Source: Pseudomonadota bacterium
Lineage (GTDB): Bacteria > Pseudomonadota > Gammaproteobacteria > Steroidobacterales > Steroidobacteraceae
Reading direction: 5' to 3'
Length of the DNA stretch: 14,201 nt
Assembly (NCBI GenBank): GCA_021850555.1
Contig: JAJZLX010000393.1
Span: 1 to 14,201 of the forward strand
Positions within the stretch are counted from its first letter, which is position 1, and every line of letters starts with the position of its first letter. The notes under the pieces are model-generated. The model was not told the origin of the DNA. It did no database searches and saw nothing but the letters and a program-made list of their open reading frames with translations. Of this stretch, positions 8,694-14,201 are shown piece after piece. A program made the translations under genes and the position numbers.

Positions 8694-10271
8694 TCAGGCG
8701 CTCGCTCTGTCTGGCGCTCCTCGGGGCTGCGGCGTCTGCCGCACCCCCGCCAGCTCCTTCGCCAGCGCCTCGCCTTCCTCGTCAGCAAGCGCAGCCTCGT
8801 GCAGTCGGGCGAGAACCGCAGCGCCGTCGGGACGAGCCGCAAGCGCATCGAGCTGCGACAATAGCGTCGAGAAGTTCCGCCAACCTCGCTCCTGAGTCTC
8901 TCCGTAGCCTTTGATGAGCCGCTGAGCGCGGGCAAGCTCCACGGCGAGGTGGTAGTGTGTCGGAGCAATCTTCTCGATGCGTGAGAGCCATTCGTTGATG
9001 CGCTGATTCTCCTCCCGATAGCGCTGAGTGCCCCGCCGCCATCGCCTGCATCCGCCCAGGGCGTGTAAAAGCAAAAAGCCGCCGACGGTGCTGCTGCGTA
9101 TCCGTTTGCCTTCCGTCCATCGGCCGAGCCACCGTGATACGCGCGGTGAGCGCAGCACCCAATCCCCGATGCCCGCAGGCAAAGTGCCGGCGATTTCCGC
9201 CACACGCGGCTTCATGAACTCCGTGATGCCGAACAGCTGGCCCGCCTCGGCGCGAATCTCCTGGCGAACCCGGGCAAAACGCGCCGACCTCGTCTTGAGG
9301 TCCGCCACGCGGATCGTGTCCTCGAAACTCATCCACAGCGCAAGGCTGCGGGCAACGGCCACGGTCAACGCCCGATCGTTTCCAATGCCGAGCTCGTCCC
9401 GGCTCAGCCGCTCATCGAGCATCGACACCCGCTCCAGGCGGGCAAGATAGAGCTCGGCATAGGCCGGGTCCTGAAAGTCGATGGCCCGGCGCACTCCCGC
9501 GAGCGCCAAGGCCCGGACCGATTCAGGCAGACGGTGCACTCGATCGAGCAACGGCTGCAGGGCGGGCGAGCGCGCACGAAGCGGCAGCTCGCTTTCTGAA
9601 ACAGCAGCCGTCGAGTCCCCGCCCCCTGACCCGGTCTCCTCGCCGCATTGGGCCCGCTGGCAGGCGTCGGCAAACGCGGCGAGATTGGTGCTCACCGCGA
9701 TGCCGCTCTTCTCGATCGCCGCCTCGAAAGCCTGGCGTGTGAACGGCAGCACGCCGCTGCCGCAGAGCGCACCGAGGAGCACCGAGCTGATGACACTGTG
9801 ATGCCGCTCCGCCACCGCATCCATGTCAAACAGAACCAGCCTGCGCGCCTGCGCTCGCAGGAGAGCGGTGATCCCGGCCTCATCCGCCATTGCCTGGCCC
9901 ATCGCGCTCTTCTCCGAGATCGCGAAGGAGCGGTGGGATGAGGCGATCAACGTGGTTCTGCCCGGCGTCACGAGCCCACGCTGAACAACCCTGCCCGCCT
10001 CGACCAGCTCGGACGCGATGACGCAGTCCACATCGCCGGGGACGGGCATGAGAGCCATGATCGGCTCCGCGCCGGCCCGCTGCGATTCAGCGAGTGGGAA
10101 GAGCTCGAGGTAATAGATCGTCGCTCCCGTGCGCTGGGCCACACCGGGAACGGATGTCGATTGCGCGAGATATCCCTGTGCCTCGGCGATTTCGACCAGC
10201 CAGTCGGCCAGCACGCCACCTCCCTGCCCTCCCAAGGCGGCAATGCACAACTTGATGGGGCGATGGGTCAC
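8694..10271 (-). CDS. iorB: Indolepyruvate:ferredoxin oxidoreductase beta-type subunit with long C-terminal domain
   Basis: The protein has about 525 residues. The first 190 or so are the gamma-type catalytic domain of 2-oxoacid:ferredoxin oxidoreductases. It begins IKLCIAALGGQGGGVLADWL, with a glycine-rich loop at 14-19, followed by VPGVAQRTGATIYYLEL. The remaining roughly 320 residues match, from memory, the DUF6537-type extension of the 'IorB family' proteins found with IorA-like partners. Classical archaeal IorB is only about 200-230 residues. With IorA it should decarboxylate a 2-oxoacid to an acyl-CoA and reduce ferredoxin. The open frame extends to 10433, but the GTG at 10271 overlaps the iorA stop (GTGA) and sits where the conserved domain begins. 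It is the last gene of the minus-strand operon. The exact substrate is not established by sequence. Confidence 0.88.
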   Translation of the reverse strand: MTHRPIKLCIAALGGQGGGVLADWLVEIAEAQGYLAQSTSVPGVAQRTGATIYYLELFPLAESQRAGAEPIMALMPVPGDVDCVIASELVEAGRVVQRGLVTPGRTTLIASSHRSFAISEKSAMGQAMADEAGITALLRAQARRLVLFDMDAVAERHHSVISSVLLGALCGSGVLPFTRQAFEAAIEKSGIAVSTNLAAFADACQRAQCGEETGSGGGDSTAAVSESELPLRARSPALQPLLDRVHRLPESVRALALAGVRRAIDFQDPAYAELYLARLERVSMLDERLSRDELGIGNDRALTVAVARSLALWMSFEDTIRVADLKTRSARFARVRQEIRAEAGQLFGITEFMKPRVAEIAGTLPAGIGDWVLRSPRVSRWLGRWTEGKRIRSSTVGGFLLLHALGGCRRWRRGTQRYREENQRINEWLSRIEKIAPTHYHLAVELARAQRLIKGYGETQERGWRNFSTLLSQLDALAARPDGAAVLARLHEAALADEEGEALAKELAGVRQTPQPRGAPDRASA

Positions 10272-13342: not shown

Positions 13343-14201
13343 ATGAAGCGAATCGTCTGCCTGGGCGGCGGTCCGGCCGGCCTCTACGCCGCCATTTTGC
13401 TGCGCAGGGCGCTGCCCAGGACACGCATCGAGGTCTACGAGCGTAACCGCCCGGATGATACCTTCGGCTGGGGCGTAGTCTTCTCCGATCGCACCCTGGA
13501 GAATTTCCGCGCCGCCGATGCGCCTTCACACGAGGCCATCGTTTCCGGGTTCCACCATTGGGAGGACATCGAGGTCCACTTCCGGGGCCGGCGATTCGTG
13601 AGCGGCGGACACGGCTTCTGCGGCATCGGCCGCAAGCGTCTGCTCATGATCCTGCAGCAGCGCGCCCGCGAGCTCGGCGTCGAGCTCCACTTTCAGCGGG
13701 AATTCGAGGACGAGAGCCCGTTCGCCGATGCCGATCTCATCGTGGCCGCCGACGGGGTCAACAGCAAGCTGCGCACCCGCCACGCCGAGATCTTCAAGCC
13801 CGAGGTCGAGCGACGCAAGTGCCGCTACATCTGGCTCGGCACTACGCATACCTTTGGCGCGTTCACCTTCGCCTTCGAGCAGACCGCGCACGGCTGGTTC
13901 CAGATGCACGCGTATCAGTTCAGCGCCGACCTCTCCACGGTCATCGTGGAGACGCCCGAGGAGGTCTGGAAAGCGCACGGCCTCGACCGTTGCGACACCG
14001 CGCAATCCATCGAATTCTGCGCGAACCTCTTCGGACGGTATCTGAGCGGACACCGCCTGCAAAGCAACGCCGGTCATCTGCGCGGCTCGGCCTGGCTCAA
14101 TTTCAACCGCGTCATCTGTCGGCGCTGGCATCACGGCAACCTGGTGCTGATCGGCGATGCGGCTCACACGGCGCATTTTTCCATCGGCTCGGGTACGAAG
14201 C
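13343..14201 (+). CDS. FAD monooxygenase domain of salicylyl-CoA 5-hydroxylase / 2-aminobenzoyl-CoA monooxygenase type, 3' truncated by the window
   Basis: About 286 residues are present. MKRIVCLGGGPAGLYAAILL holds the FAD Rossmann loop (GGGPAG, 8-13). It is followed by VYERNRPDDTFGWGVVFSD, GHGFCGIGRKRLL, IVAADGVNSKLR (Asp137-Gly138) and LIGDAAHTAHFSIGSGTK (Gly271-Asp272). This combination is specific to the aryl-CoA hydroxylase group, in which the FAD domain is usually fused to an old-yellow-enzyme-like reductase for a total of about 780 residues. That second half lies beyond the right edge. These enzymes hydroxylate, and in the 2-aminobenzoyl-CoA case also reduce, an aromatic CoA thioester. 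A GGGGGAGG site is about 11 bases upstream. An in-frame ATG at 13304 lies almost at the predicted transcription start and is less likely. Choice between salicylyl-CoA and 2-aminobenzoyl-CoA is not possible here. Confidence 0.9.
   Translation, partial: MKRIVCLGGGPAGLYAAILLRRALPRTRIEVYERNRPDDTFGWGVVFSDRTLENFRAADAPSHEAIVSGFHHWEDIEVHFRGRRFVSGGHGFCGIGRKRLLMILQQRARELGVELHFQREFEDESPFADADLIVAADGVNSKLRTRHAEIFKPEVERRKCRYIWLGTTHTFGAFTFAFEQTAHGWFQMHAYQFSADLSTVIVETPEEVWKAHGLDRCDTAQSIEFCANLFGRYLSGHRLQSNAGHLRGSAWLNFNRVICRRWHHGNLVLIGDAAHTAHFSIGSGTK

Follow-up and report, generated by a model that had tools for sequence, protein, structure and literature searches.

Contig JAJZLX010000393.1 (assembly GCA_021850555.1), from a bacterium of the Steroidobacteraceae, is 14,201 nucleotides long, and this whole stretch is referred to here as the window. 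It carries a cyclase-family hydrolase gene in one tight operon with iorA and iorB, annotated by homology as subunits of indolepyruvate oxidoreductase (IOR), and, divergent from these, the gene of a flavoprotein of the 2-aminobenzoyl-CoA monooxygenase/reductase (ACMR) type, an enzyme that attacks aromatic CoA thioesters. Which reaction would an IorAB pair perform between such partners? Isatin arises when the plant hormone auxin is broken down, and we consider it likely, with fair confidence, that the cluster turns isatin into a dearomatised CoA thioester by way of anthraniloyl-CoA made by IorAB, without the help of a ligase.

In the proposed route, isatin hydrolase would open the ring of isatin to give the aryl 2-oxoacid isatinate (2-aminophenylglyoxylate), which IorAB, the counterpart of IadA/IadB in auxin-degradation (iad) loci, would oxidatively decarboxylate with CoA and presumably a ferredoxin-type acceptor to give anthraniloyl-CoA. 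Phenylglyoxylate oxidoreductase, which makes benzoyl-CoA, serves as the model for this second step. ACMR would then hydroxylate and reduce anthraniloyl-CoA to 2-amino-5-oxocyclohex-1-enecarbonyl-CoA, and the Rid, SDR, enoyl-CoA hydratase and acyl-CoA dehydrogenase proteins encoded beside ACMR in relatives would deaminate and beta-oxidise the product. As the thioester would be formed by IorAB in the second step, an ATP-dependent anthranilate-CoA ligase would be saved.

Organisation of the cluster

The features of the window that enter the argument are the following.

8694-10271, minus strand: iorB / iadB, with POR and DUF6537 domains; 525 amino acids from GTG 10271; NF006179 at 654 bits against a cut-off of 348
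10268-12415, minus strand: iorA / iadA, alpha-type subunit of a thiamine diphosphate (ThDP) 2-oxoacid:ferredoxin oxidoreductase; 715 amino acids; TPP_enzyme_C
12434-13237, minus strand: probable isatin hydrolase (cyclase family, IadI-type); 267 amino acids; PF04199
13238-13342, no strand: divergent intergenic region with the palindrome TTGA-GGTG-TCAA at 13266-13277, a candidate operator
13343-14201, plus strand: ACMR-type flavoprotein, N-terminal part; FAD_binding_3; NF006101 at 460 bits over 284 residues
8051-8455, plus strand: Rid-family protein (enamine/imine deaminase type); PF01042 (Ribonuc_L-PSP)

The hydrolase gene and iorA are spaced by 18 bases, and the GTG start of iorB at 10271 falls within the iorA stop, giving a GTGA overlap. 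By alignment with its relative in locus L002, the ACMR gene likely starts at ATG 13343, so that the two divergent starts are 105 bp apart; the gene is incomplete, its reading frame running to the window end on the plus strand. The Rid gene converges on iorB across a gap of 238 bp. A preliminary description of this DNA had reported the tight operon, the divergent monooxygenase and the convergent Rid gene, and all are present, the Rid gene lying outside the interval 8694-14201 to which that description referred. The best protein matches with family-bearing names come from Steroidobacteraceae, at 84-87% identity.

Linkage of the three functions across genomes

The survey covered 398 Pseudomonadota genomes drawn across the phylum, including the centre of the draw, G001, a genome selected because it has the locus. 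Thresholds were E<=1e-60 to NF006179 for iorB, E<=1e-200 to NF006101 for ACMR and E<=1e-40 for a hydrolase relative. With iorB in 29 genomes and ACMR in 71, both occurred together in 27, against 5.2 expected (Fisher p 1.6e-20). A hydrolase relative was present in 26 of the 398, comprising 23 of the 29 iorB genomes and 3 of the 369 others, and all 23 fall among the 24 genomes whose IorA is at least 59% identical to that of the window (Fisher p 4.9e-33). The other five iorB genomes hold only a distant group (IorA 53-58%, L152-L159) of the same NCBI family NF006179, whose fetched stretches showed neither hydrolase nor ACMR; in the tree this group is not monophyletic when the tree is rooted on it, and midpoint rooting yields a split with support 1.0. 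Wide stretches were fetched for 32 of the 34 iorB matches, those omitted being the L002 locus itself and a partial match in G035. Among 16 genomes chosen for iorAB, ACMR was present in 15, 14 of them above the family cut-off. A three-way functional link of hydrolase, IorAB and ACMR is almost certain.

Ligase genes and IorAB

Were IorAB to make anthraniloyl-CoA itself, an ACMR served by it would need no ligase. A protein of the TIGR02262 type, the family of benzoate- and anthranilate-CoA ligases (E<=1e-80), was found in 66 of the 71 ACMR genomes, and the genomes with no such match were 5 of the 27 with iorB against 0 of the 44 without it (p 0.006). The pattern is sharper locally, where among 74 ACMR genes a ligase lay within 20 kb in 3 of the 15 that have iorB within 20 kb, compared to 50 of the 59 that do not (p 3.9e-6). 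Seven of these 15 are close relatives, a group scored by its majority (6 of 7 with no ligase near); with relatives collapsed by hand to seven lineages, one of seven has a ligase, and p is 0.0003-0.002 depending on the thinning of the other side.

No open reading frame with the AMP-ligase motif was found in the window or in the stretches of L001 and L002, and the genome of L002 gave no TIGR02262 match at E<=1e-80. Thirteen ligase matches were fetched and 10 of them scanned. Of the first 12 genomes, two (G002, G008) scored above the TIGR02262 cut-off and the rhizobia G007, G009 and G010 just below it; in the other seven, judged by best match only, six matched acetate-, malonyl- or long-chain-type models and G001 an exosortase-associated one, the best matches of G001 and G011 being below those models' own cut-offs. 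The one ligase compared with the Protein Data Bank (PDB), that of G008, a genome with such a locus, has anthranilate-CoA ligase as its best match.

The hydrolase and the IorAB pair

The best PDB match of the window cyclase is isatin hydrolase 5nmp (E 1.5e-103). Signatures described for isatin hydrolases are WxW or FxW, HxxxHxD, and GLAS or GLQC (PMC6117287), and the window protein has the aromatic pocket WYW at residue 68, the Mn-binding HxxxHxD motif as HTGTHFD at residue 78, and GLAS at 227 rather than the I(L/I)E of KynB. With all three signatures matched, it is probably an isatin hydrolase. In a set of 50 proteins, from 49 iorA loci and the window, the metal motif is found in 50 and GLAS or GLQC in 49, a draw that is not independent because the set was picked by similarity to the window protein. 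The set includes the copy beside iorA in L002 (9474-9971), which is only 165 residues long and lacks the middle block; L002 IorA is 86% identical to that of the window, and the L002 genome holds two further hydrolase copies of about full length elsewhere.

IorB belongs to the NF006179 subfamily (IOR beta with DUF6537) at the score listed above. IorA reaches only 276.8 bits with the IOR_alpha equivalog TIGR03336, whose cut-off is 650.9. The predicted structure of IorA suggests a PFOR/OFOR-type fold with a ThDP domain, resembling the CoA-acylating PFOR/OFOR enzymes, which ranked first in a second structural comparison of the model. Foldseek alone placed 4-hydroxybenzoylformate decarboxylase, acetohydroxyacid synthase and other ThDP enzymes at the top, a ranking not used to call a substrate because TM-scores were ~0.35 and rmsd ~20. 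A sequence search of solved structures with IorA gave no relative at E<=0.001, and a profile search gave four weak ThDP matches.

Seven cysteines (C620, C626, C632, C656, C659, C662 and C672; window 10400-10558, IorA residues 620-672) are invariant in an alignment of 40 IorA sequences. They form a first motif C-x5-C-x5-CP, which encloses an invariant GDH, and a CxxCxxC...CP set. The canonical C-terminal pattern of IOR has eight cysteines, and the IorA pattern suggests that one iron-sulphur cluster is altered; the distant group L152-L159 has the same cysteine spacing as the window IorA.

The preliminary description took indole- or arylacetyl-CoA as the product of the pair. This is unlikely in view of the IOR_alpha score, and anthraniloyl-CoA becomes the candidate product because the partner hydrolase points to isatinate. 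Taking the linkage, the ligase replacement, the fold and the chemistry together, the reaction isatinate + CoA -> anthraniloyl-CoA + CO2 + two electrons seems likely for IorAB. In the literature searched, to the extent of the text available and with subscription papers mostly outside it (including one naming Achromobacter iad genes), IorAB/IadAB was not assigned to isatinate or to any reaction, and the accessible parts of PMC12538310 and PMC8879955 do not address it.

Gene neighbourhoods and auxin-degradation loci

Gene families were scored by reference tblastn in the best 80 of 586 iorA relatives; the window itself made up the 81st sequence of the set. In the fetched stretches, iorB matched in all 80 loci, an isatin-hydrolase relative in 49, ACMR in 26 and iadD in 25; restricting the count to the 62 loci flanked by at least 5 kb in both directions gave 43 for the hydrolase, 23 for ACMR and 24 for iadD. 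In 15 of these 62 (L002, L022, L032, L034, L036, L055 and more), iorAB, hydrolase and ACMR occur with no iadD in the stretch, and four loci (L049, L056, L067 and L074) contain iorAB with the hydrolase, iadD and ACMR. L001, L002 and L148 repeat the window's layout, with ACMR divergent from cyclase-iorA-iorB. The clustering of the window genes is far above chance.

This comparison is one of two that the preliminary description had named as able to refute it, and iorAB-cyclase and ACMR turn out to be conserved together, as the 27 of 29 iorB genomes with ACMR also indicate. Its idea of a single route, leading from an indolic compound to the dearomatising of a CoA thioester, agrees with this strong co-conservation, as does the joining of ferredoxin-type oxidation to aerobic attack on an aryl-CoA. 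It had called that combination unusual, which does not hold, as loci with alpha-, beta- and gammaproteobacterial titles have it again.

Loci of Variovorax and Achromobacter (L019, L004 and others) show a MarR gene followed by iadA (iorA), iadB (iorB), C, D, E, F, G, H and I, the published iad order, the letters being given here from order and families. iadA and iadB are described as exclusive markers of iad-like operons (PMC9613470), and L019 and other loci with the iad order were retrieved with the window IorA, to which theirs is 64% identical. In the genome of L002 (G001), the nearest relative with a long sequence, two such loci are found and iadD-E-F-G-H-I lies ~35 kb from one of them; since that run and the locus share a contig, auxin breakdown is linked with the cluster there. 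L049 combines iadD-I, iorAB and the ACMR operon, IadF being the sole AMP-ligase found in its stretch. Isatin in these relatives is probably made from auxin via the iadD-H genes.

Published work on auxin agrees with this setting. iadDE is sufficient for auxin loss (PMC9613470), and iorB and iotA of Bradyrhizobium japonicum are induced by auxin 7.64- and 30.70-fold (PMC3788728). In Variovorax deleted for the locus, iadC-K2, nine genes that by their range exclude iadAB, restores anthranilate, and C8H7NO3 and C7H7NO build up strongly only in strains overexpressing the whole iadC-K2 set (2025 preprint, PMC12633357). The formula C8H7NO3 fits isatinate, and C7H7NO fits 2-aminobenzaldehyde, which isatinate would give on decarboxylation; in another strain C8H7NO3 was identified as isatinic acid (PMC8383072). 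We read the Variovorax data as a backing up of isatinate in the absence of IadAB, a reading that is ours and not that of the authors of PMC12633357. The 'iad' cluster of Pseudomonas sp. LY1 was set aside as a different gene set, organised like those of Enterobacter soli and Acinetobacter baumannii and having homologues in P. putida 1290 (PMC8383072).

Lower pathway, regulation and neighbouring genes

The window ACMR, a truncated copy, belongs to a family whose name does not separate anthraniloyl-CoA from salicylyl-CoA as substrate. The full-length relative in L002 has 770 residues with FAD_binding_3 and Oxidored_FMN and scores 1250.7 with NF006101, against a cut-off of 1078. Enzymes of the ACMR type convert anthraniloyl-CoA to the oxocyclohexene thioester named above (PMC3534580), and Rid hydrolysis is plausible because this product is an enamine. 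L001 and L002 share a run of genes for ACMR, SDR, MarR, enoyl-CoA hydratase, acyl-CoA dehydrogenase, Rid and a second old-yellow-enzyme protein, and L148 has the same run through Rid. The preliminary description had suggested looking for an SDR, a MarR regulator, an enoyl-CoA hydratase and an aryl-CoA ligase to the right of the window; the first three are there in L001 and L002, together with an acyl-CoA dehydrogenase and a second Rid beyond those predicted, and no aryl-CoA ligase was found in either stretch.

A Rid protein 87-89% identical to that of the window lies ~3.4 kb past iorB in L002, relatives at 62-71% occur in the isatin hydrolase-iorAB stretches L014, L135, L143 and L144, and 18 of the 80 iorA loci have a Rid of the lower-operon kind. 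The window Rid is a probable partner in the pathway. A thiolase and a FadB-like gene stand between iorB and the matching Rid gene in L002 (13754-17516). As this pair is absent between iorB and Rid (8051-8455) in the window, a deletion or move is likely.

The palindrome TTGA-N4-TCAA came from an alignment of the divergent gaps and is common to the matching gaps of the window, L001, L002 and L148, the last differing once in the spacer; if one mismatch is allowed, 0.10 matches are expected in the window. The palindrome is local in character, because the pattern occurs in only 2 of 97 loci examined, and an inverted-repeat search of the divergent gap gave nothing convincing. The MarR gene of the relatives' ACMR operon is a candidate for the regulator.

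Elsewhere in the window are a large sensor kinase with Reg_prop propeller, Y_Y_Y and histidine-kinase domains (295-3525, minus strand), a WrbA-type NAD(P)H:quinone oxidoreductase (3858-4520, minus strand) and a LemA gene that shares 10 bases with a DUF3137 gene (5733-7234, minus strand). GC content is ~54% over 6001-8000, below both flanks. The Rieske family, to which the IadDE oxygenase required for attack on auxin belongs, was absent among the nine proteins scanned in this short window.

Alternative explanations and exceptions

Several routes could place these genes together. Isatinate might pass through 2-aminobenzaldehyde to free anthranilate by other enzymes, with a ligase making anthraniloyl-CoA and IorAB an accessory for electron supply or side-product removal. 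The return of anthranilate, with C7H7NO present, in Variovorax carrying iadC-K2 without iadAB (PMC12633357) would fit this, as would genome G343, where hydrolase, ligase and ACMR occur with no iorB match, and the TIGR02262-type proteins (E<=1e-80) in 66 of 71 ACMR genomes. It leaves unexplained, however, that a ligase was not found beside ACMR in 12 of the 15 iorB-near cases and that ligase gaps at the genome level occur only in iorB carriers (5 of 27 against 0 of 44), and we regard it as unlikely.

A role of IorAB as a genuine oxidoreductase of indolepyruvate or arylpyruvate, making indoleacetyl-CoA from tryptophan, appears very improbable. The homology annotation and the aryl 2-oxoacid chemistry favour it, but the IorA score of 276.8 against 650.9 does not, the frequent partner is an isatin hydrolase, and IorA sits in iad operons, whose action is downstream of auxin; the distant NF006179 group L152-L159 could be the arylpyruvate branch instead. 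It is most improbable that the ACMR-type gene is an unrelated neighbour acting on salicylyl-CoA, as the NCBIfam family name (salicylyl-CoA 5-hydroxylase/oxidoreductase) would have it, for ACMR is linked with iorB and isatin hydrolase both genome-wide and locally, and the G008 ligase is closest to anthranilate-CoA ligase in the PDB.

A number of observations weigh against the formation of anthraniloyl-CoA by IorAB. IadAB is dispensable for anthranilate in Variovorax, as iadC-K2 without iadAB yields it, and the build-up of C8H7NO3 and C7H7NO could come from overexpression alone (PMC12633357). Of the 27 genomes with iorB and ACMR, 22 encode a TIGR02262-type protein as well (E<=1e-80), a benzoate-CoA-ligase-family match of 805 bits occurs elsewhere in the L001 genome, an anthranilate-CoA-ligase-like gene is present in 8 of the 80 iorA loci, and L037 has one at the edge of the locus; if IorAB makes the thioester, the ligases of iorB genomes would serve free anthranilate or benzoate. 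The ligase search of all 71 ACMR genomes scored at most 18 candidates per genome (out of 76 in G312), and divergent anthranilate-CoA ligases or gaps in metagenome-assembled genomes could escape it. Many of the compared genomes are metagenome-assembled or close relatives, and the 59% IorA boundary was drawn after the data were seen. Co-occurrence also has its exceptions, namely G343, which has hydrolase, ligase and ACMR with no iorB match; G278, with iorAB and no hydrolase; G203 and G253, with hydrolase relatives and no iorB; and the genome of L073, which lacks ACMR. A hydrolase relative is missing from the fetched stretch in 31 of the 80 iorA loci. G343 may use an alternative isatinate-processing enzyme. 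Its locus L167 holds an anthranilate-CoA-ligase-like gene, a MarR gene, the isatin hydrolase and ACMR together at 6948-12638.

Implications and comparison with known systems

On balance, it is probable that IorAB of the IadA/IadB type is an isatinate:ferredoxin oxidoreductase which works in aerobes beside an O2-dependent oxygenase and replaces anthranilate-CoA ligase, free anthranilate, the published endpoint of iad, being a side product formed when IadAB is missing or slow. If true, iadA and iadB, markers of a widespread auxin-degradation locus, would gain an assayable reaction, the gap from isatin to ring breakdown would be closed and the auxin induction in Bradyrhizobium explained. It would also mean a ligase-free entry into the anthraniloyl-CoA pathway, and an aerobic setting, with an unusual cysteine pattern, for an enzyme class usually thought to be oxygen-sensitive.

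Compared with the iad loci of Variovorax, Achromobacter and Bradyrhizobium, the window has iorA and iorB of the iadA/iadB type and a hydrolase of the iadI type; it differs in showing no iadC-H and in that these genes adjoin the lower-pathway gene of ACMR. The hydrolase shares WxW, HxxxHxD and GLAS with the isatin hydrolases LaIHA, LaIHB and RsIHA, and sequence tests show no difference from them. IOR has the two-subunit architecture and fold type of the window IorAB, whereas the window IorA falls below the IOR_alpha cut-off, DUF6537 is on the beta subunit, and there are seven C-terminal cysteines compared to eight in IOR. Phenylglyoxylate:acceptor oxidoreductase likewise turns an aryl 2-oxoacid and CoA into an aroyl-CoA and CO2, but is a multi-subunit, anaerobic enzyme, in contrast to the two subunits, aerobic pathway and 2-amino-substituted substrate considered here. 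The aerobic 2-aminobenzoyl-CoA (abm) pathway of Azoarcus evansii and Arthrobacter sp. Rue61a uses the same type of ring-attacking enzyme (PMC3534580); Rue61a, however, activates anthranilate with an ATP-dependent anthranilate-CoA ligase (PMC3534580), whereas in the window cluster the thioester would be formed by IorAB.

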